In this document: one piece after another, positions 17,675 to 28,921 of the stretch
Position numbering within the stretch: the first letter of the stretch is position 1
How the letters are laid out: each line of letters begins with the position of its first letter
NCBI GenBank assembly: GCA_015075635.1
Contig: JABTUA010000001.1
Location: forward strand, 1,674,001 to 1,738,000
Length of the DNA stretch: 64,000 bases
Reading direction: 5' to 3'
From: Polyangiaceae bacterium
GTDB lineage: Bacteria; Myxococcota_A; Polyangia; Polyangiales; Polyangiaceae
Translations under genes and position numbers: made by a program
Notes under the pieces: generated by a model
Told to the model about the DNA's origin: nothing
The model's database searches: none
What the model saw: only the letters and a program-made list of their open reading frames with translations

Positions 17675-18655
17675 TCAGGGCTCGAAGCGCAGCATCGGGT
17701 TGTGCACCGCGGGGACGCTCTTCAGGTAGTCGTAGATGGCGCCCAGGTCGGCATCGCTCATGCCCGCGTAGAACGTCCAGGGCATCAGCGTGTTCGGCTG
17801 CCCGGCTTCGACCCTGGGCGCCGCCTTGGGATCGCGATAGGCGGCGAAGCGCGCGACGAACTCGGCCCGAGTCCAGCGGCCGATGCCGGTCTCCGCATCG
17901 GGGGTGATGTTCGCGGAGCGCACCGCACCGCCGGTCGGGAGCGGGATGCGGGTGCCGCCGGCCAGGTACATGCCGGCCTTGGGCTCGTTGCCGTCGCGTT
18001 GGGTGTGGCAGTGGGTGCAGCCGCCGACCGTGACCAGGTACTTGCCCGCCGCGAGGGGGTCCTTCGTGCTGTCCGGGCAGGCCCAGGGCTCGGCGGCCTT
18101 CGGCAGCGTGCGGATCAGCAGGCTCACCGGGAAGTCCAGCTGCGCCTCCGGCACCGTGCCGGCCTTCGGAGAGAGCGTGCGCAGGTAGGCGACGATGGCG
18201 TCGGCGTCGCTCTGGCAGAGGTGTGAGAAGTCCTGCCATGGCATCAGCGGAAAGAGCGCGCGCCCGTCCTGGGCGACTCCGGTGGTCATCGCGCGCGCGA
18301 CCTCTCCGTCGCTGTGAGCTCCGACGCCGGCCGGGGTGATGTTCGGCGCGTATACGGTGCCCGGCAAGCCGAGCTCCCGGCCGAAGCGCTGTCCGCCCTT
18401 GCCCTCCGTGCCCGGCACCAGGGGCCCCGAGTAGCGGGAGAAGTCCCGGCTGGAGTGGCAGTCGGTGCAGCCGGCGACGTGGTTGGCCAGGTAACGCCCA
18501 CGCTCGACCGCCTCCGGGGTGGCCGACACCGGCGCGTCGCTCGCCGCCGGCGCGTTGGGCAGACCCGCGTAGACGAACCCGAGCCCAGCCCCGAGCAAGG
18601 ACCCCGGGATCGAGACCGCGACCGAAACCCACTTGAACAGCTTCTTCATGCCCAT
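17675..18655 (-). CDS. Diheme c-type cytochrome
   Basis: A 326-aa exported or membrane-anchored cytochrome c. A hydrophobic N-terminal signal/anchor (SVAVSIPGSLLGAGLGFVYAG) is followed by two heme-attachment sites, CTDCH and CTHCH, each in a cytochrome c domain. Axial-ligand regions around ALFPLMPWQDF and NTLMPWTFYAG complete the two domains. It resembles the cytochrome subunits of periplasmic alcohol/gluconate-type dehydrogenases and would carry electrons in the periplasm. AGGAGG lies 10 bases before the ATG at 18655; an ATG at 18649 is an alternative. It diverges from the kinase/redox operon and shares its upstream region. Confidence 0.88.
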   Translation of the reverse strand: MGMKKLFKWVSVAVSIPGSLLGAGLGFVYAGLPNAPAASDAPVSATPEAVERGRYLANHVAGCTDCHSSRDFSRYSGPLVPGTEGKGGQRFGRELGLPGTVYAPNITPAGVGAHSDGEVARAMTTGVAQDGRALFPLMPWQDFSHLCQSDADAIVAYLRTLSPKAGTVPEAQLDFPVSLLIRTLPKAAEPWACPDSTKDPLAAGKYLVTVGGCTHCHTQRDGNEPKAGMYLAGGTRIPLPTGGAVRSANITPDAETGIGRWTRAEFVARFAAYRDPKAAPRVEAGQPNTLMPWTFYAGMSDADLGAIYDYLKSVPAVHNPMLRFEP

Positions 18656-18707
18656 CTCCGTCGTTCCTCCTGACTCGAGCGAGGATGGGGCTTTGCTGCG
18701 GACCGTG

Positions 18708-18919: not shown

Positions 18920-20068
18920 ATGGAGCGGATTGGCGAGTACCTCGTTCGGCGGCTGGTGGGCGAGGGCGGCATGGGCAAGGTCTACGAGGCCGAGGAGCGC
19001 CTCTCCCGCCGGCGCGTCGCGCTGAAGGTGCTCCGGCCCGAGCTCGCCAAGAGCGAGGAGGGGCGCCGTCTGTTCTTGAACGAGATGACGATCCTCGCGC
19101 ACCTGGACCACCCGAACGTGGTGCGTTGCCTGGCCTGCACCGAGGCGGACGAGCAGCTGGTGATGGCCCTCGAGTACCTCGAAGGCAAGACGCTGCGGGA
19201 GTACCTGAACCAACACGGCGCGTTGCCCTGGGAAGAGGCGGTGGACGTCGCGGTGCAGATCGCGTCGGCGCTCTCCGCCGCGCACCGCCAAGAGCCGCCC
19301 ATCGTGCACCGGGATCTGAAGCCCGAGAACGTGATGATCCTCGACGACGGCGGCGTGAAGGTCATGGACTTCGGCATCGCCAAGGTGCTTCAAGCGCTGA
19401 GCAAGACCACGACGCACAGCGTGGGCACGCTGCAGTACATGAGCCCGGAGCAGATCGACGCGACCGGCGTGGACGCGCGCAGCGATCTCTACTGTCTGGG
19501 CCTGGTGCTGTACGAGATGCTGGCCGGCAAGCCGCCCTTCGAGTCGCCCTCTCCGCGCGAGCTCTTGAACATGCAGTGCACGCAGGCGCCGCCGCCGCTG
19601 GGCGACAAGGTGCGGGGTGCTCTGCCCAAGGGCATCGAGCGCCTGTTGTTCGAGCTGCTCGAGAAGCGCCCCGACGATCGACCGGGCTCTGCGGCGGACG
19701 TATTGCACGAGCTCGAGCCCTTCGCTCCCGCGAGCGGCGGAGCGCGGCGGCGCACCCGGCCGAGCGCGACGGTTCCCGCCGCGAGCGAGCGCGAGGCGGA
19801 GGCCACGGCCAAGAAGGGCCCCGAGGCGGATGTCGCAGAGCGGCCTGCGCCCCGACCGAAGCAGGACAAACCCCGCGCCGACACCATCGCGCTGGTGGAG
19901 AAGGCCGCGGCGCCGCGCGACGTTCCGGCGCGCACGGGGCTCCTGATAGTGGTCCTGCTCAGCCTGATCGCCGGCCTCGTCACCTACCTCGTGCGCGCTT
20001 CTGGCTCGGACGACGAGCCGAGGAACGAGCCCGCGCTCACCGCCAATCCCCGGAGCGAGGCGCGGTGA
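18920..20068 (+). CDS. Hanks-type Ser/Thr protein kinase, tail-anchored
   Basis: A 382-aa kinase with an intact catalytic domain (~residues 5-265): GEGGMGKVY, Lys36 in VALKVL, HRDLKPEN (Asp132), DFG (Asp150) and the SPEQ of the activation segment. A charged Glu/Ala/Lys/Arg linker leads to one membrane helix at about 340-359 and only a short external tail, so it has no sensor domain of its own. The ATG at 18920 has AAGG 4 bases upstream. Its stop overlaps the GTG of the pseudokinase-cytochrome gene, which suggests that the partner supplies the extracytoplasmic sensing part. That pairing is inference. Confidence 0.9.
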   Translation: MERIGEYLVRRLVGEGGMGKVYEAEERLSRRRVALKVLRPELAKSEEGRRLFLNEMTILAHLDHPNVVRCLACTEADEQLVMALEYLEGKTLREYLNQHGALPWEEAVDVAVQIASALSAAHRQEPPIVHRDLKPENVMILDDGGVKVMDFGIAKVLQALSKTTTHSVGTLQYMSPEQIDATGVDARSDLYCLGLVLYEMLAGKPPFESPSPRELLNMQCTQAPPPLGDKVRGALPKGIERLLFELLEKRPDDRPGSAADVLHELEPFAPASGGARRRTRPSATVPAASEREAEATAKKGPEADVAERPAPRPKQDKPRADTIALVEKAAAPRDVPARTGLLIVVLLSLIAGLVTYLVRASGSDDEPRNEPALTANPRSEAR

Positions 20069-22989
20069 GCCGTCGGGAGCTCGGCCGCGTCGGTCGAGCG
20101 CGACGCTTCGAGGCGGGCTCGGCGGAGCTGTGGCGGCTGGGGTCCGAAGAGCGCGCCCTCGCCGAACGGCTCGCGGAGCTCGGGCGCCGCGGTATCGGCG
20201 GCTTCGTCGCCATGGGTGAGGACGCCGATGGGATCTGGGTCGAGCGCCGGGTACCTCGGGAGACGCTGGCGGAGTTCTTGCGCGCGGAGCACGAGCCCAG
20301 CTCGGTGGTCGAGCGCCTCCTGGCCCTCGCGCGTGTGCTCGAGGCGCTGGAGGAGGCGAGCCTGTTCCCGGGACCGCTCTCGCCCAAGGGAGTCGTCGTG
20401 GTCGGCGACCGTGTCGAGCTCCTGGCGGACCCACTGATCCACGCGCTGGTCGGTGAGCCCGCCCTGCCCGACCGCGCCGCGGACAGTGCGTCCCCGCGCT
20501 TCATGCCGCCGGAGCAAGCGGACGGTGCTGCCTGGGACAACGCGGCCAACCGCTACGTGCTCGGGCTGATGCTCTACCGGGGGCTCGCGCTCGAGCACGC
20601 CTTCGCGGTGCGTGGCCTGCGCCACGGTCTCGAGGAGGCGGCGCACCGCGCGCCGCCGCCCATCGCCGACGCGCGGGCCGCCCTGCTGCCCCCCGGGCTT
20701 CAGAGCTTCTGCTTGCGCCTGTTGGATCCGGACCCGCGCGAGCGCCCGAAGAGCGCGGCGGAGATCGCAAGGGGCCTCTCGCGCTTCCTCGCCGGGGAGG
20801 CCCCGAAGACCGCGCGCTCTCCGGACCCCCGAGCGCCCGAGCCACCGCGGGCCGCGGAGCCGACGACCGAGGGCGCGCGTCCGGCCAAGCCAGTCTCCAG
20901 CTGGCGGCTCGGCGCGCTTCTGCCAGTGCTGGCCGGCCTCGCGCTGGCCGCCGTCGCGTTCGCGGCCTTGGACGAGCGTCCTGGCACCGAGAAGCGAGCC
21001 TTGGCTCGGGAGCCGCTCCGGCCGAGCGAGACGCTGGCCAGCGACTGCGCGGCGTGCCACCCGCGCCAGACCGGGGAGTGGCATCGCTCGGTGATGGCGC
21101 ACGCCGCCAAGAGCCCCCTCTACCAGGCGCTGGAGATCTTGATCGAGGAGCAGGTCGGGCGCGACCTCGACTGCCCGAACGGCGCCGGCATTCTGCGCAG
21201 CGCCGGAGCGGGGGCGTGCCGCGATCGCGTCTCCGGATTGCCGGTCACCGGTTCTGGCGGCGAGCTCTGGTGCGTGAACTGTCACGCGCCCGCCGAGAAC
21301 CTGGAGAAGAGCCTGCCGGCCTGGGACGGACGCGGCAGCGACGCGCGCTCCCGCTTGCCGCTCGCGGATCTGCTCTCCGAGCGGGCCATGGAAGGGATCT
21401 CGTGCGGCTTCTGTCATCAGGTGCGCGGGCCGGTGCGCCCGGCGCGAGGCGGCTACCAGGGCAATCCGTTCTGGACGAGCACGCGCACCGGCGAACGCTT
21501 CAGCATGCGCCCCGAAGACGCCCGGGGCGCGTTCGGCATCTCCAATAGCGGCTACGAGCTCGATCCCGCCGAGCTGTTCGCGGCAGCGGCGGCGCCGGAG
21601 GACCGGGTGCCCGGCGGCGCGCACGCCCGACCCACGAAGGCGGCCGCCGCGTTCCTTCAGGACAGTCGCTTCTGCGGCACTTGCCACGACGTGCGCTTGT
21701 TCGGCAGCGACGTGATCGGCGCGCGCAAGGGCGAGCACTTCAAGCGGCTGCGCAACGCGTTCAGCGAGTGGCAGGACTACGTCGCGGCGGAGGCTCGCGC
21801 GGGCCGCAAGGCGGCGAGCTGTCAGGACTGCCACATGTCCACGTTCCCCGGCGTGTGCGAGACCGAACGCGGGGCGCCGGGCGGCAGCGGCTGCCCACCC
21901 GGCACGCGGCTCGTGAAGCGGGCGCCCGGGAGCTATCCCGACGGGCGCTGGGCGAGCAGCTCGGGCGAGCCCAGGAGGAGCACGCCGCACTACTTCAGCG
22001 GGGTCGATCTACCGCTCTCGGCGGAGTTCGCCGATGGCCTGGTCAGTGAGCCCACCGTGGACGTGTTCGGGATCCCGCTCGGAGCCGCCCAGCGGCGCCA
22101 GATTCTGCTGCAAGCGAGCGTTTCGCTGAAGCTCGAGGGTCCCGCCCTGCGCGGCGCGACGCTCGAGCTGCCGGTGGTGTTCGAAAACGTGGGCGGCGGG
22201 CACCGAGTCCCTGCGGGGTTCAGCCAAGAACGCGAGGTCTGGCTGCACCTCCGCGTCAGCGACGCCCGCGGGCGCCGGGTCTACGAGGTCGGGCGCGTGG
22301 AGCGCGACGACGAGGATCTGCGGGACAAGGTCTTCTTGCGCGTCAACACCGACGACGGGCTCCGCGACGGGCAGGGGCGTCCGCTCGGGATGTTCGGCGC
22401 CGACGTCGCCGATGGGCCGGACGTCCCGCGCTTCAGCCCGAACCCGGCGCGCGGCGGCCAGCGCTTCCGGGGGCGAGGCCTGGTGAACTTCCAGAACGGC
22501 TTCTTGCGCTGCGTGGTCTGCATCGGCAGCGTGGACGCGAGCGGCCGCTGCCAGCCCTTGCCGGGCCAGGAGCGCGCGCGCGCCGATCGCTACGCCGACG
22601 GCACCTACGATCCGGACACGGGCGAGTGCCAGAGCAACTTGCTCGGCGACGAGGCGCTGTTCGAGACCTACTTCCCCATCGGTGCCCTGGACGCGACGCG
22701 CGGCGCGACGCGCGGTCCCGACGCCATCATCGACACGCGCTCGCTGCCGCCGCGCGTCCCCATCACCTACGTCTACGAGATCCCGACCAGCGGGTTCACG
22801 CCACCCTTCGAGGTCGAGACACGGCTCCTGTTCCGGGCCTTCCCGCCCTTCCTGCTGCGCGCGTTCATCGACTACGAGCGCCGGCAGGCGCGCCTGGGCA
22901 AGCGCCCCAGCGGACCCGCAATCGACCAGAGCGCGCTCGCTCGGAACACCATCGTGGAGATGGCCCGCGTGAGCACGGTGGTGCGGTGA
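20065..22989 (+). CDS. Pseudokinase-TM-pentaheme cytochrome c fusion
   Basis: A 974-aa fusion. Residues ~1-255 align by order and spacing with a Ser/Thr kinase, but the catalytic residues are missing: the HRD region reads FPGPLSPKG, the DFG region reads LADPLIH, while the activation-segment PPEQ and the late RERP motif survive. A Pro-rich linker leads to one membrane helix (~280-302). The external part holds five heme sites, CAACH, CVNCH, CGFCH, CGTCH and CQDCH at residues 328, 403, 447, 537 and 586, then a large beta-rich domain. The topology puts the pseudokinase in the cytoplasm and the hemes in the periplasm. The GTGA overlap fixes the start. Confidence 0.82.
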   Translation: MSRRELGRVGRARRFEAGSAELWRLGSEERALAERLAELGRRGIGGFVAMGEDADGIWVERRVPRETLAEFLRAEHEPSSVVERLLALARVLEALEEASLFPGPLSPKGVVVVGDRVELLADPLIHALVGEPALPDRAADSASPRFMPPEQADGAAWDNAANRYVLGLMLYRGLALEHAFAVRGLRHGLEEAAHRAPPPIADARAALLPPGLQSFCLRLLDPDPRERPKSAAEIARGLSRFLAGEAPKTARSPDPRAPEPPRAAEPTTEGARPAKPVSSWRLGALLPVLAGLALAAVAFAALDERPGTEKRALAREPLRPSETLASDCAACHPRQTGEWHRSVMAHAAKSPLYQALEILIEEQVGRDLDCPNGAGILRSAGAGACRDRVSGLPVTGSGGELWCVNCHAPAENLEKSLPAWDGRGSDARSRLPLADLLSERAMEGISCGFCHQVRGPVRPARGGYQGNPFWTSTRTGERFSMRPEDARGAFGISNSGYELDPAELFAAAAAPEDRVPGGAHARPTKAAAAFLQDSRFCGTCHDVRLFGSDVIGARKGEHFKRLRNAFSEWQDYVAAEARAGRKAASCQDCHMSTFPGVCETERGAPGGSGCPPGTRLVKRAPGSYPDGRWASSSGEPRRSTPHYFSGVDLPLSAEFADGLVSEPTVDVFGIPLGAAQRRQILLQASVSLKLEGPALRGATLELPVVFENVGGGHRVPAGFSQEREVWLHLRVSDARGRRVYEVGRVERDDEDLRDKVFLRVNTDDGLRDGQGRPLGMFGADVADGPDVPRFSPNPARGGQRFRGRGLVNFQNGFLRCVVCIGSVDASGRCQPLPGQERARADRYADGTYDPDTGECQSNLLGDEALFETYFPIGALDATRGATRGPDAIIDTRSLPPRVPITYVYEIPTSGFTPPFEVETRLLFRAFPPFLLRAFIDYERRQARLGKRPSGPAIDQSALARNTIVEMARVSTVVR

Positions 22990-25241
22990 GCTCGAGCGCC
23001 TGGCCGCCCTCGGTGTTCGACGCGCCGGCGCTCGTCGGCCTCGACGCCCGCGCACGCGCCGAGGTCGAACGCGCCGGGCGTTGGCGCGAGCTCGCCGCCG
23101 GCGACGTGCTCTACCGCGCTGGTGAGCCGAGCGACGCGCTCTTCGTGGTGTCGAGCGGCGCGCTCCGCCTGACCGCGGTGCGCCGCGGCGACGAGCACGA
23201 GAGCGAGCTGCGGCGCGCGCGGCGGGGCGACACGCTGGGCGAAGAAGCGGCGCTGCCGGGCGCCGCGCGGGCGGCCACCGCCACGGCAGAGCAAGCCTGC
23301 GAGCTGGCCGAGATCCCCATGGGCGTCTTGACGCGGGCGCTGGCCAAGAGCGGCGGCGACGGCCTGCCGCGCGAGGAGCGCGCGCTGCGTCGCGCGGCTT
23401 CCCGCGACCTGCTCGGCACGCTGGCGTTCGCCCGGGACCTGCCCGGAGAAGATCTGGAGCTCTTGCTCGACGGGGTGCGCTGGACCGCGCTGCCTCGACG
23501 CGCACGCCTGTTCGGAGTGGGCGATCCGTCGGACGCGGCGTACCTGGTGGTGAGCGGACTGCTCCAGCTCCAGACCGAGCACGAAGGTCGAGTCCAGGTG
23601 CGGGCCTACGTGAGCCGAGGCGACCTGTTCGGAGACGAAGACGCGCTCTCGGGGGAGCGGCGCGGCGTGCACGCCGTGGCCAAGGGAGATTGCCAGCTCT
23701 TGGCGGTGCCACGCGCGCTGCTCCGCTCGCTCGTCGATCGCAACCCGGGAGTGCTCGAGCGCATCGCGCGTCTTCGGGCGGAGCGCGTGGCGCGCCAGCG
23801 GCGAGTCGCCGACGCTTCCGTAAAGACCACCCAGCACGTGTTCCAGGATCTGTATCGACTGCAGATGGCGCGCTCGCTCCTGGCCATCGACCAAGACCGA
23901 TGCGTCCGCTGCGGTCATTGCGCCTGGGCTTGTGCGGACACCCACGACGGCGTCGCGCGCCTGGTGCGCCGAGGAGACAAAATCGTGACGGAGCTCGCGG
24001 TGGCCGAGAGCGCCGCGAAGAGCCTGATGTTGCCGAGCTCGTGCCAGCACTGCCACAACCCGGTGTGCATGATCGACTGCCCTACGGGCGCCATCGGTCG
24101 CGATCCGGAAGGGGACGTGTTCATTCGCGAGGCGCTCTGCACCGGCTGCGGCGCCTGCGCCAAGGCCTGCCCCTGGGAGAACATCCGGATGGCGCCCCGC
24201 GCCGCCGGCGGCGGCTCGGAGGAGGTCGCGGTGAAGTGCGACCTGTGCAAGGGCTTCGACGCCCCAGCCTGTGTCAGCGCTTGCCCGACCGAGGCCATCA
24301 CCCGGCTGGATCCGCAGCGCGACTTCCGCGAGCTCGGCGCGCTGTTCGGCGGCGAGTCGGCGGTCGCCAGCGCGGCGCCGGAGCGCTCGGGCTGGCTCGC
24401 GCTCGCGCCCTCGGTCGGTGTCGCGCTCGCCATCGGGCTGGTCCCGGCCGGCGTGCTCTTCCACGCGCGCGCGCTCGGGTCGCCGGGAAGCGGTCTGCCC
24501 TACGCGGCGGGGCTCGGCGCGCTCCTCGGCTGCTTCGGGCTCGCCGCCTACGCGCTGCCCAAGCGCCTGGGCAAGCGCTGGACGAAGCCCCGCGCGCGCA
24601 AGACGGACGCTCGAGAGATGCCTGCACCGCGCTCGCGCGTCGTTCCGCACTATCGGCTGCACGTCGCGCTCGGCCTCGGGACGGTGGCTGCGGTCGCGCT
24701 GCACTCCGGCGGACGCATCGGTCACGGCTTGGCCGGCGCGCTCTCGGTGGCGTTCTGGCTGACGGCGCTCCTCGGTGGGGTCGCCGCGCTGGCCTACCGC
24801 GGGATCCCCGCGCGGCTCTCGCGTCTCGAGCGAAAGGGCGCGCTGCCCGAGGATCTGGCACTGGAGAACGACACCTTGTTCGATCGGCTGCACCGCGCGA
24901 CCAGCGGCACCAGCGAGCTGACAAAGACCATCACCGAGAAGCTGCTGGTCCCATACGCGCGCTCACCGTTCGGCGCCCTCGCGCTGATCGCGTCCGGTCG
25001 CACGCTCAGCCAGGAGCGCAGCGTGCTCCGCGCGCGCGTGGACGCCGTGCTCGAGGGCCGCGGCGGAGAACGGCTGGACGGGCTCGATGAGCTGATCCGC
25101 ATCGTGGTCGAGCTCCGCGCGCTGCCCGCGCGACGCTTGCTGACCTTCTGCCTGAGAGGCCTGGTTCCCGCGCACCTGCTCGGGACCGGGATCTTGCTCG
25201 TGCTGCTGGCGCTGCACGTGCTCCAGATGACGAGGTGGTGA
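22986..25241 (+). CDS. Double cNMP-binding, four-[4Fe-4S] membrane redox protein
   Basis: A 751-aa protein with domains in this order. Two cyclic-nucleotide-binding-like barrels lie at about 10-130 and 150-270 (LFVVSSGALRL, then AYLVVSGLLQL and GDLFGDEDAL). A ferredoxin region at ~300-440 has Cys clusters beginning at residues 306, 353, 385 and 418, for example CVRCGHCAWAC and CTGCGACAKAC, giving up to four [4Fe-4S] clusters as in HybA/DmsB-type subunits. Four hydrophobic helices follow (~460-600), some with His that could ligate heme b, and a last helix near the C-terminus. CQHCH at 353 belongs to the ferredoxin pattern and is not a heme site. GTGA-coupled to the previous gene. Confidence 0.82.
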   Translation: MSSSAWPPSVFDAPALVGLDARARAEVERAGRWRELAAGDVLYRAGEPSDALFVVSSGALRLTAVRRGDEHESELRRARRGDTLGEEAALPGAARAATATAEQACELAEIPMGVLTRALAKSGGDGLPREERALRRAASRDLLGTLAFARDLPGEDLELLLDGVRWTALPRRARLFGVGDPSDAAYLVVSGLLQLQTEHEGRVQVRAYVSRGDLFGDEDALSGERRGVHAVAKGDCQLLAVPRALLRSLVDRNPGVLERIARLRAERVARQRRVADASVKTTQHVFQDLYRLQMARSLLAIDQDRCVRCGHCAWACADTHDGVARLVRRGDKIVTELAVAESAAKSLMLPSSCQHCHNPVCMIDCPTGAIGRDPEGDVFIREALCTGCGACAKACPWENIRMAPRAAGGGSEEVAVKCDLCKGFDAPACVSACPTEAITRLDPQRDFRELGALFGGESAVASAAPERSGWLALAPSVGVALAIGLVPAGVLFHARALGSPGSGLPYAAGLGALLGCFGLAAYALPKRLGKRWTKPRARKTDAREMPAPRSRVVPHYRLHVALGLGTVAAVALHSGGRIGHGLAGALSVAFWLTALLGGVAALAYRGIPARLSRLERKGALPEDLALENDTLFDRLHRATSGTSELTKTITEKLLVPYARSPFGALALIASGRTLSQERSVLRARVDAVLEGRGGERLDGLDELIRIVVELRALPARRLLTFCLRGLVPAHLLGTGILLVLLALHVLQMTRW

Positions 25242-27310
25242 TGGCCGACGACCGTCCCCTCGTCGAGCTCGCGCCCGAGGCTGCCCACGGCCGCCGCCGA
25301 GGCGCGCCGCGCGCGCTCGAGACCAGCGACGTGACGCGATTTCGCGGTCTGCTCCCGGCCGCCGCCGTCGGCGCCGTGGTGGCCGCCGCGCTCGCGATCT
25401 GGAGCAGCGGGCTGCCCGGGCTGCGCTCTCCCGGCGGGCAGTCGCGCCCGCATCGCCTCGCCAAGCTCGAATGCGGGAGCTGCCACACCGACGAGGGCAA
25501 GCCCCAGGAGGCCTGCCGGCGCTGTCACGGCGGGCTCCCCTCGGAGCGCCCGGCGCACCAGGAGTTGCGGAGGCGGCGCGAGCTCGGCTGTACCAGCTGC
25601 CACGCAATCCATCGCGCCGACGAAGGCGTGGCGTTCACGCCCGACGGCGCGGTGATCCGCTACGGCACGGGCTGGGAGCGCGAGCTCTCGGGGGAGCACA
25701 CTCTGTTCCGCCCGACCAAGACCGTGAGCGTGCCGCTGGTCCCGGCGCGCGCGTGCGCCAAGTGCCACGACCTCGGACGGCAGGACGATCCGATCCGGGA
25801 GTGCCTGATCGAGGGCCAGCGCTCGCCCGAGCGCCCCACGGTCTGCTTCGACGAGCACCGCGCCGTCAGCGGGCTGGCCGGCGTCGGGGCGAAGGTCGCC
25901 CCCGGCGCCACCACCGAGCGCGACGCCGCCTGGGAAGCGGCGCGCGAGGTCGCCAGCCGCGGCGCCGCGCCGGCGCTCGCCGGCGTCGCGGGCAGCCCCG
26001 TCGGGATCGTCGGCAGCGGCTTCGGCGCTGCGCTGCTCGTGTTCGGGGGGCTCAGACTACGGGCACGCCGTCGCTCCGCGCGACTGGAGCAGGCTCGGCG
26101 TCAGCTCAGCGTGGTGCAGCCGGCAGCAGTGCGACGCGTGCCACACGTGGACGTGGCCACCTGCCTCGGCTGCTATGCCTGCGTCGACGCTTGCCCCTAC
26201 GACGTGCTCGAGGTGCGGCGCTACGTCGCGGTCGTTGCTCGACCCGACGACTGCTGTGGTTTGACGCTGTGCGAGCAGCGCTGTCCGAACGGGTCCCTGG
26301 TGGTCAGCGATGGCGACCCCATCGACGACCGCCCCAAGGTGAAGGACACGCTGGAGTCGGTGGACGTGCCGGGGCTCTACCTGGCCGGCGATCTCACCGG
26401 GCTGCCTCTGATCCGCAACGCCATCAACCAAGGCTCGCACGCCGTGCGCGAGATCGCCGAGCGGCAGGGGCGCGCGCGCGACCGCGACGGCGACCTCGAC
26501 CTGATCGTCGTCGGCGCCGGTCCCGCGGGCATCAGCGCGGCGCTCGAGGCCAAGGCCCGAGGGCTCACGGCGAAGCTCTTGGAGCAGGCGACGGTCGCCG
26601 CCAGCATCCAGAGCTTCCCTCGCGGCAAGCTGGTGTTCGACCAACCCCTGGGCATGCCCATGGTGGGCGACCTGTGGCTGGAGGAGTCCACCAAGGAGGA
26701 GCTCTTGGCCAAGTGGCTCCGCATCGTGCGTCGGGCGGAGCTCGACATCGACGAGGGGCGCCGTGTCACTCGGGTCGAGCGGCACGGCGAAGCGTTCGTC
26801 GTGACGGCGCTCGGCGAGGAAGGCGGCGAGCGGGTCTATCGCGCGCGGAACGTCCTGCTCGCCATCGGCCGCCGGGGCTCGCCGCGCCGGCTGGACGTAC
26901 CCATCGCCCAGGCGGCCGAGTCCCGCGTGTTCTACGCGCTGGTGGACGCCCGGGCGTTCGCCGGACAGCGCGTGGTCGTGGTGGGACTCGGGGACACGGC
27001 GATGGAGACGGCCATCGCGCTCGCCCGCCAGCCCGCCACCCGGGTCACCCTGGTCTACCGCGGCAGCGGGTTCCGTCGCGGGAAGGCTCGCAACATCGAC
27101 GAGGTGAAGCGCCTCGTCGGGCAGGGGCGGGTCCAGCTCGCCTTCGACTCCACGGTGGCGCGCGTGGAGCCGGATCACGTCGTGCTGCGGACGACAGCGG
27201 GCGAAGAGCGCGTGGACGCCGACGCCGTGTTCGTGCTGATCGGCTCGATCTTGCCCTGGGAGTTCCTGGGCGCCGTGGGTGTCCGGCGCGGCGCGGCATC
27301 CGCAGGATGA
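25241..27310 (+). CDS. Tetraheme cytochrome-[4Fe-4S]-flavoprotein (YpdA/TrxR-like) fusion
   Basis: A 689-aa fusion. After a membrane helix (~35-58) it has four CxxCH sites (CGSCH, CRRCH, CTSCH, CAKCH at residues 78, 92, 117 and 172), then a second helix (~247-270). A ferredoxin domain begins at 308 with CLGCYACVDACPYD, followed by a Cys-rich CCGLTLCEQRCPNG. The last ~270 residues are a two-dinucleotide flavoprotein: GAGPAGISAALEA for FAD and VVGLGDTAMETAIA for NAD(P). It resembles the thioredoxin-reductase/YpdA group without the CxxC redox pair. This could pass electrons between NAD(P)H and periplasmic hemes across the membrane. The ATG overlaps the preceding stop (TGATG). Confidence 0.82.
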   Translation: MADDRPLVELAPEAAHGRRRGAPRALETSDVTRFRGLLPAAAVGAVVAAALAIWSSGLPGLRSPGGQSRPHRLAKLECGSCHTDEGKPQEACRRCHGGLPSERPAHQELRRRRELGCTSCHAIHRADEGVAFTPDGAVIRYGTGWERELSGEHTLFRPTKTVSVPLVPARACAKCHDLGRQDDPIRECLIEGQRSPERPTVCFDEHRAVSGLAGVGAKVAPGATTERDAAWEAAREVASRGAAPALAGVAGSPVGIVGSGFGAALLVFGGLRLRARRRSARLEQARRQLSVVQPAAVRRVPHVDVATCLGCYACVDACPYDVLEVRRYVAVVARPDDCCGLTLCEQRCPNGSLVVSDGDPIDDRPKVKDTLESVDVPGLYLAGDLTGLPLIRNAINQGSHAVREIAERQGRARDRDGDLDLIVVGAGPAGISAALEAKARGLTAKLLEQATVAASIQSFPRGKLVFDQPLGMPMVGDLWLEESTKEELLAKWLRIVRRAELDIDEGRRVTRVERHGEAFVVTALGEEGGERVYRARNVLLAIGRRGSPRRLDVPIAQAAESRVFYALVDARAFAGQRVVVVGLGDTAMETAIALARQPATRVTLVYRGSGFRRGKARNIDEVKRLVGQGRVQLAFDSTVARVEPDHVVLRTTAGEERVDADAVFVLIGSILPWEFLGAVGVRRGAASAG

Positions 27311-27436: not shown

Positions 27437-28921
27437 ATGAAGGTCAAGAGCGTCGCGGGCCTGGCGGCCATCGGAATGTTGCTGTCGAGCGTGTCGGTCT
27501 GGTCCCTGACCAAGCCTCGGCTCGAGCCAGAGCCCCTCGGCGGGGTGGGGGGCGCGGAGCCGGAGCAGCCCGAGGTCCCGGCCCACCCGGGCGCCAGCTT
27601 CACTGCCGGCAGGACGCTGATGATGGAGGGCCGACTCGGCCACGGCAAGCTCCTCGCCAGCAAGGACAACCAGACCATGCTGCTGGTCAACGTGGCGGCG
27701 GACGGGTCCGGGGCGCCGCCCGTGGCCGCGCCGCTCAACCTGGCCATCGTGATCGATCGCTCGGGGTCGATGAAGGGCAAGCGCTTGCAGAACGCCATCG
27801 ACGGCGCCCGCGGCATGGTGCGCCGCCTACGCGACGGGGACGTGGTGTCCGTCGTGACCTACAGCCAGACCGCCGAGGTCTTGGTCGCCCCGACGACGGT
27901 GGACTCCTTCTCGCGCGACCGCGTCAGCGCCTCGCTGGGCACCATCTCCGCGCTGGGCGACACCTGCATCTCGTGCGGCATCGACGAGGGCATGGCTCAG
28001 CTGCGCCAGCGCAGCGGGATGATCGACCGCATCTTGCTGCTCTCCGACGGCGAGGCCACCGCGGGCGTGCGCGACCCGGAGGGTTTCCGGGCCATCGGCG
28101 CGCGCATCCGCAACATGGGCGCCAGCATCAGCAGCGTCGGCGTCGACGTCGACTACAACGAGCGCGTGATGAACACGCTGGCCATCGAGTCGAACGGCCG
28201 GCACCACTTCGTGGAGAACGCGGCGGATCTTCCCCGCGTGTTCGATCAGGAGCTGGACACGCTGGCCAAGTCGCTGGCGAAGAACGCCGAGGTCGCCATC
28301 GACCTGGCGCCGGGCGTGGAGGTCGAGCGCGTGTTCGATCGCACGTTCCGCCGCGAGGGCCGCAAGCTGTTCGTGCCCCTCGGCAGCTTCAGCTCCGGCG
28401 AAGAGAAGACGCTCCTGGTCTCGCTGCGCGTTCCGCGTGGCGCGAGCGGCGAGCGGCCCGTCGCCGACATCAAGATGGGCTACGACGACCTGTCTTCGGG
28501 CACGCTGCTCGGGACCCGGGGCGAGTGCCAAGGCAAGCTGAGCGCGCTCTTGACCGACAACCCCGCGAACGTGAGCGAGATCGACCCGTTGGTCACCGCG
28601 CGCATGCTGCGCAGCCAGACCGCCGCCGCGCTCACCGAGGCGAACGAGCTGTGGGCCGCGGGCCGCGGCGAGGAAGCGCGGCGCAAGCTCGACGCGCGCC
28701 TCGACGACCTGAAGAAGCAGCGCGAGGCGACCGTGGCGCGGGCGCCGTCGCCCGCCAAAGCGAAGCTCGAAGCGGATTTCCAGGGTCAATCGAGCGCGCT
28801 CGGACAGGCCAATGAAGGGTTCTCGTCGCCGCCTGCCGGGGCCGCTCCAGCGGAAGCCGAGCGCAAGGGCAAGGCGCAGGTTCGCAGCAACGCGACCAAG
28901 GCGCTGGACTTGGCTTTCTAG
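27437..28921 (+). CDS. Exported VWA-domain protein
   Basis: A 494-aa protein with an N-terminal hydrophobic signal/anchor (AGLAAIGMLLSSVSVWSL). The von Willebrand A domain (~95-275) has an intact metal site, DRSGS in AIVIDRSGSMKGK, with later Thr/Asp positions around GDTCISCG and LLLSDGEAT. The C-terminal half has a beta-rich part and an alpha-helical Ala/Glu/Arg stretch. The role is probably protein-protein contact in the envelope. GGGAGG 10 bases before the ATG at 27437 supports this start. It precedes the giant VIT/VWA gene by 103 bases, so the two may be paired. Confidence 0.85.
   Translation: MKVKSVAGLAAIGMLLSSVSVWSLTKPRLEPEPLGGVGGAEPEQPEVPAHPGASFTAGRTLMMEGRLGHGKLLASKDNQTMLLVNVAADGSGAPPVAAPLNLAIVIDRSGSMKGKRLQNAIDGARGMVRRLRDGDVVSVVTYSQTAEVLVAPTTVDSFSRDRVSASLGTISALGDTCISCGIDEGMAQLRQRSGMIDRILLLSDGEATAGVRDPEGFRAIGARIRNMGASISSVGVDVDYNERVMNTLAIESNGRHHFVENAADLPRVFDQELDTLAKSLAKNAEVAIDLAPGVEVERVFDRTFRREGRKLFVPLGSFSSGEEKTLLVSLRVPRGASGERPVADIKMGYDDLSSGTLLGTRGECQGKLSALLTDNPANVSEIDPLVTARMLRSQTAAALTEANELWAAGRGEEARRKLDARLDDLKKQREATVARAPSPAKAKLEADFQGQSSALGQANEGFSSPPAGAAPAEAERKGKAQVRSNATKALDLAF

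Follow-up and report, generated by a model that had tools for sequence, protein, structure and literature searches.

Function is known for very few bacterial pseudokinases. In type VIIb secretion systems, the transmembrane pseudokinase EssB/YukC combines a cytoplasmic pseudokinase part with a single membrane crossing, is degraded in all three motifs and in the glycine loop, and serves as a scaffold (PMC12599244). PknB/Stk1-type membrane kinases have a cytoplasmic kinase, one transmembrane (TM) helix and an external domain, in their case PASTA. Pentaheme cytochromes (Cytochrome_C554 or Paired_CXXCH-like, and weakly ExtKL) stand alone as secreted proteins or lipoproteins with five CxxCH sites, and iron-sulfur (Fe-S)/cytochrome membrane complexes with NrfC, DmsB or HmcB-type subunits bring a four-cluster ferredoxin subunit and multiheme partners together in one operon. 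Here we analyze a 64,000-nucleotide stretch of a Polyangiaceae bacterium genome (contig JABTUA010000001.1, positions 1,674,001 to 1,738,000; this whole stretch is referred to below as the window, and all coordinates are positions within it), in which a gene at 20065-22989 on the forward strand encodes a 974-residue protein that joins a predicted pseudokinase, through a single TM helix, to a predicted pentaheme cytochrome. A probable role for the cytochrome is that of a subunit in a membrane electron-transfer complex; the pseudokinase probably serves the intact Ser/Thr kinase encoded immediately upstream as a docking or regulatory domain.

In its logic the fusion comes closest to EssB/YukC, and the same motifs and glycine loop are degraded in both, but EssB/YukC has no hemes and belongs to a secretion operon, whereas the operon here consists of redox and kinase genes and is no type VII secretion neighborhood; the two share a fold class. 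The fusion differs from PknB/Stk1-type kinases in having no catalytic residues and in carrying a pentaheme cytochrome instead of PASTA, and from the stand-alone pentaheme cytochromes (most of which share a GAGHxxPxG motif region with it; loci L066, L068 and L151) in its TM-linked pseudokinase. Compared with the NrfC, DmsB and HmcB-type complexes, its operon adds fused cyclic nucleotide monophosphate (cNMP)-binding domains, a flavin adenine dinucleotide (FAD)/NAD(P) module and kinase genes. We found no paper in the open-licence literature on a pseudokinase combined with a multiheme cytochrome or on myxobacterial equivalents, and a review from 2025 on the families of bacterial pseudokinases mentions neither cytochrome, heme nor myxobacteria (PMC12599244). 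The architecture is new; its building blocks, such as the membrane pseudokinase, are known.

One gene, conserved in Myxococcota

No stop interrupts the reading frame of the fusion between its GTG start and its TGA; the start overlaps the stop codon of the upstream kinase gene (GTGA), and the gene that follows overlaps the fusion likewise. Hydropathy of the window protein and its orthologs places the single TM helix at residues ~280-302 (20902-20970, forward strand), and the exported part C-terminal to it contains five CxxCH sites, all on the forward strand: CAACH (C328; 21046-21060), CVNCH (C403; 21271-21285), CGFCH (C447; 21403-21417), CGTCH (C537; 21673-21687) and CQDCH (C586; 21820-21834). 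Each predicted heme site is invariant in the aligned full-length orthologs (five of five in 17 sequences). Several such sites, conserved and exported beyond a TM helix, are what is expected of a multiheme c-type cytochrome. The whole 974-residue protein has homologs at ~50-62% identity in many Myxococcota genomes. Because gene order and frame are identical in dozens of genomes, we rule out that two separate genes had been taken for one. The fusion of pseudokinase and cytochrome, which an initial annotation had proposed together with its five external heme sites, is real, old and conserved in Myxococcota.

Within the window's family, 45 of 108 genomes match the cytochrome profile, as do 53 of 289 genomes sampled from the class, and nearly all matches carry the pseudokinase in frame where the contig extends far enough. 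Elsewhere the fusion was not found: no CxxCH occurs at the 24 loci of weaker kinase matches that were checked, among them loci of Planctomycetota, Verrucomicrobia and Thiorhodococcus. In one genome (G298, locus L114) one copy of the cytochrome gene is interrupted by several in-frame stops and is apparently a pseudogene; the other copy is open and lies at a contig end.

Family models match the cytochrome part weakly. The window protein scores 13.3 bits against Cytochrome_C554 (Pfam PF13435), below the gathering cut-off of 20.8, with weak matches in eight of 16 orthologs, and 26.8 bits against ExtKL (NF040886), below the curated cut-off of 250. Besides the heme sites, the region 21010-22986 encodes further conserved cysteines (C370, C385, C598, C610, C816, C819, C829 and C855), the last four in a pattern RCVxCIG...C...C; these may form disulfides or a metal site.

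The kinase-like domain and its intact neighbor

The pseudokinase domain spans residues ~10-248 (20092-20808, forward strand). A Pfam search of the window protein gave no kinase match; NCBIfam kinase models match it (best E 8.8e-11), PDB kinases match it in a single-sequence search (E 1.7e-6), and a profile of 16 orthologs matches PknB of S. aureus and M. tuberculosis at E ~1e-17. The AlphaFold2 model, for which the input was orthologue sequences only, is a two-lobed kinase fold (predicted local distance difference test [pLDDT] 82, predicted template modeling score [pTM] 0.82). PknB is its best Foldseek match and aligns with it in VIA-align at Z 17.8 over 218 residues with a high root mean square deviation (rmsd) of 6.5 A; rmsd values of 5-7 A suggest displaced lobes or loops in the model. 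PknB/Stk1-type kinases are in this way the closest relatives in both fold and sequence, and a resemblance through chance motifs is ruled out by profile, fold and conservation.

When the domain is aligned to the neighboring kinase, HRDLKPEN is replaced by PGPLSPKG and the DFG region by ADP. A motif scan of 45 non-redundant orthologs finds HRD in none, a DFG-like triplet in one and a lysine near beta3 in four, and neither the stray triplet nor the lysines are systematic. Because the glycine loop, the beta3 Lys and the alphaF Asp are lost as well, the domain lacks what an active Hanks-type kinase needs (glycine loop, beta3 Lys, HRD Asp and DFG Asp) and combines, as bacterial Ser/Thr pseudokinases do, a kinase fold with degraded catalytic motifs; from this motif loss it is predicted to be catalytically dead. 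Conservation is highest in residues 146-190, the PPEQ-alphaF-alphaG region (with the motifs PPEQ, NRYxLGLxxYR and GLR), where the mean majority share is 0.75, as against 0.47-0.57 elsewhere, and P149, R163, Y171, G184 and R186 are invariant among the 45 sequences. The kinase fold, the loss of HRD and DFG and the retention of PPEQ are as the initial annotation had read them. Activities such as the transfer of adenosine monophosphate (AMP) or glutamate, as by SelO or SidJ, have been found in other bacterial pseudokinases (PMC12599244) and are conceivable for this domain; we regard this as very improbable, because every one of the catalytic positions (glycine loop, Lys, HRD and DFG) is degenerate and varies between orthologs.

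The gene directly upstream (18920-20068, forward strand) encodes an intact Hanks-type Ser/Thr kinase (Pfam Pkinase 5.7e-58). All catalytic motifs are present (GEGGMGKVYE, VALKVL, HRDLKPEN, DFG and SPEQ) and invariant in orthologs, and one TM helix near the C-terminus is followed by a short external tail only, in keeping with its earlier description as an active-looking kinase that has no sensor. Among the 108 family genomes the intact kinase occurs in 49, the cytochrome in 45 and both in 44. In the five kinase-only genomes there are four contig ends (G036, G278, G279 and G325) and one different protein (G283); in G302 the cytochrome is located at a contig end. The protein in G283 (locus L145) has two tandem kinase-like regions, of which the second shares 65% identity with the operon kinase. 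Part of the co-occurrence is simple co-inheritance of linked genes; in both unlinked cases checked (G393 and G444), the kinase is retained at a separate locus.

A search of the window's genome with the pseudokinase profile (~125 kinase-like matches) returned the adjoining kinase as best non-self match, at 107 bits compared with 92 for the next, suggesting tandem duplication. This match, adjacency in most genomes and retention when unlinked agree with the partnership that had been proposed for the two proteins. The pseudokinase might also be mainly a decaying duplicate of that kinase, now a non-signaling anchor or assembly piece in the cytoplasm, as its best non-self match, its several-fold faster evolution (tree tips of ~0.5-0.9, compared with 0.1-0.25 for the kinase) and its absence from three genomes would allow; we consider this improbable, because an open frame and the fold are maintained across the whole class and the R163/Y171/G184/R186 patch is invariant.

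Redox neighbors and the case for an electron-transfer subunit

Two large redox proteins are encoded immediately downstream of the fusion, both on the forward strand. The first (22986-25241) has two cNMP-binding domains, four [4Fe-4S] clusters (16 conserved Cys, NrfC/DmsB-like) and, at the C-terminus, a membrane part whose hydrophobic stretches contain two HX13H pairs, possibly a diheme cytochrome b. The second (25235-27310) runs from a TM helix through four CxxCH sites, another TM helix and two [4Fe-4S] clusters to a FAD/NAD(P) oxidoreductase (YpdA/TrxR-like). This single polypeptide could take electrons from NAD(P)H by way of FAD and Fe-S to four c-hemes on the other side of the membrane. The redox motifs of both proteins are fully conserved, and the gene order (kinase, pseudokinase-cytochrome, cNMP-FeS-membrane protein, heme-FeS-FAD protein, VWA protein) is conserved as well. 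The usual last gene of the cluster (27437-28921, forward strand) encodes a predicted secreted VWA-domain protein and adjoins the kinase where the cluster is split (G255 and G444). Judged by the motifs of these neighbors, the cluster reads as a membrane electron-transfer system.

Five-heme stand-alone relatives of the cytochrome occur in Planctomycetota, Pseudomonadota and other Myxococcota as secreted or lipoprotein forms, and three genomes (G333, G159 and G310) retain kinase and cytochrome while lacking a pseudokinase at the locus and, by profile, in the rest of the genome. In G333, where the locus lies on one contig, a short N-terminus and a TM helix precede the hemes and the GTGA overlap with the kinase stop is retained; the G159 cytochrome has a lipoprotein-like signal. 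These relatives and genomes indicate that the cytochrome exists as a unit of its own, that the pseudokinase joined it in one lineage and that this addition can be lost.

The redox neighbors, the pseudokinase-free genomes and the stand-alone relatives lead us to favor, at about even confidence, an electron-transfer subunit with a kinase-docking domain over a split receptor or a mere anchor. The pentaheme domain would transfer electrons outside the cytoplasm, as one subunit of a membrane redox complex formed with the products of the next two genes. Within this complex, electrons could pass between NAD(P)H in the cytoplasm, [4Fe-4S] clusters, b-hemes in the membrane and c-hemes outside. The pseudokinase would be a non-catalytic docking or regulatory domain on the cytochrome subunit; since alphaG is a common docking face of kinases, its conserved alphaF-alphaG face may hold the active membrane kinase at the complex and so couple phosphorylation to electron flow, in whichever direction the coupling would run. 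The gene content suggests that kinase signaling and electron flow are wired together in these myxobacteria.

Several observations weigh against this account. The three genomes above show that the pseudokinase is not indispensable, G020 and G033 do not have the FAD gene as next in line, and the AlphaFold2 model of the cytochrome domain is unusable (pLDDT 41; in this low-confidence model the part after the hemes is mainly strands). A tree of pseudokinases and kinases gives two separate, well-supported clades and does not serve as proof of tandem duplication.

The initial annotation had instead proposed a split redox receptor, in which the hemes would sense the redox state outside and the pseudokinase would control the sensorless kinase allosterically; what is sensed might also be an electron donor. 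The single-TM, receptor-like topology of the fusion, the short external tail of the TM-bearing kinase and the tight co-occurrence of kinase and cytochrome are all consistent with such a receptor, but the adjoining genes resemble an electron-transfer chain rather than a pure signaling unit, cytochrome relatives stand alone without any pseudokinase, and three genomes do without the pseudokinase while retaining both partners. We hold the split receptor to be possible but doubtful, and an electron-transfer subunit with kinase docking fits at least equally well. That the fusion represents a new class of bacterial transmembrane redox receptor, in which the electron load outside the inner membrane would switch a separate Ser/Thr kinase by way of the pentaheme domain and its linked pseudokinase, we consider unlikely.

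An active kinase is the conserved partner of the pseudokinase, the external cofactor domain attached to it is defined, and natural genomes exist with and without it, which makes the role of a bacterial pseudokinase directly testable here. If the proposed coupling is true, Ser/Thr phosphorylation would be tied to cell-envelope electron transfer in the kinase-rich myxobacteria.

The locus and its relatives show three further features. The 22986-25241 product, with two CRP-like cNMP domains and redox parts in one polypeptide, is an unusual regulatory-plus-redox fusion and is conserved with the cluster. Another cytochrome-kinase neighborhood occurs in G008 (locus L056), where a second, stand-alone pentaheme lipoprotein is followed by a large kinase gene. 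Beside the cluster in the window, a divergent gene on the minus strand (17675-18660) encodes an exported cytochrome c with two CxxCH sites.
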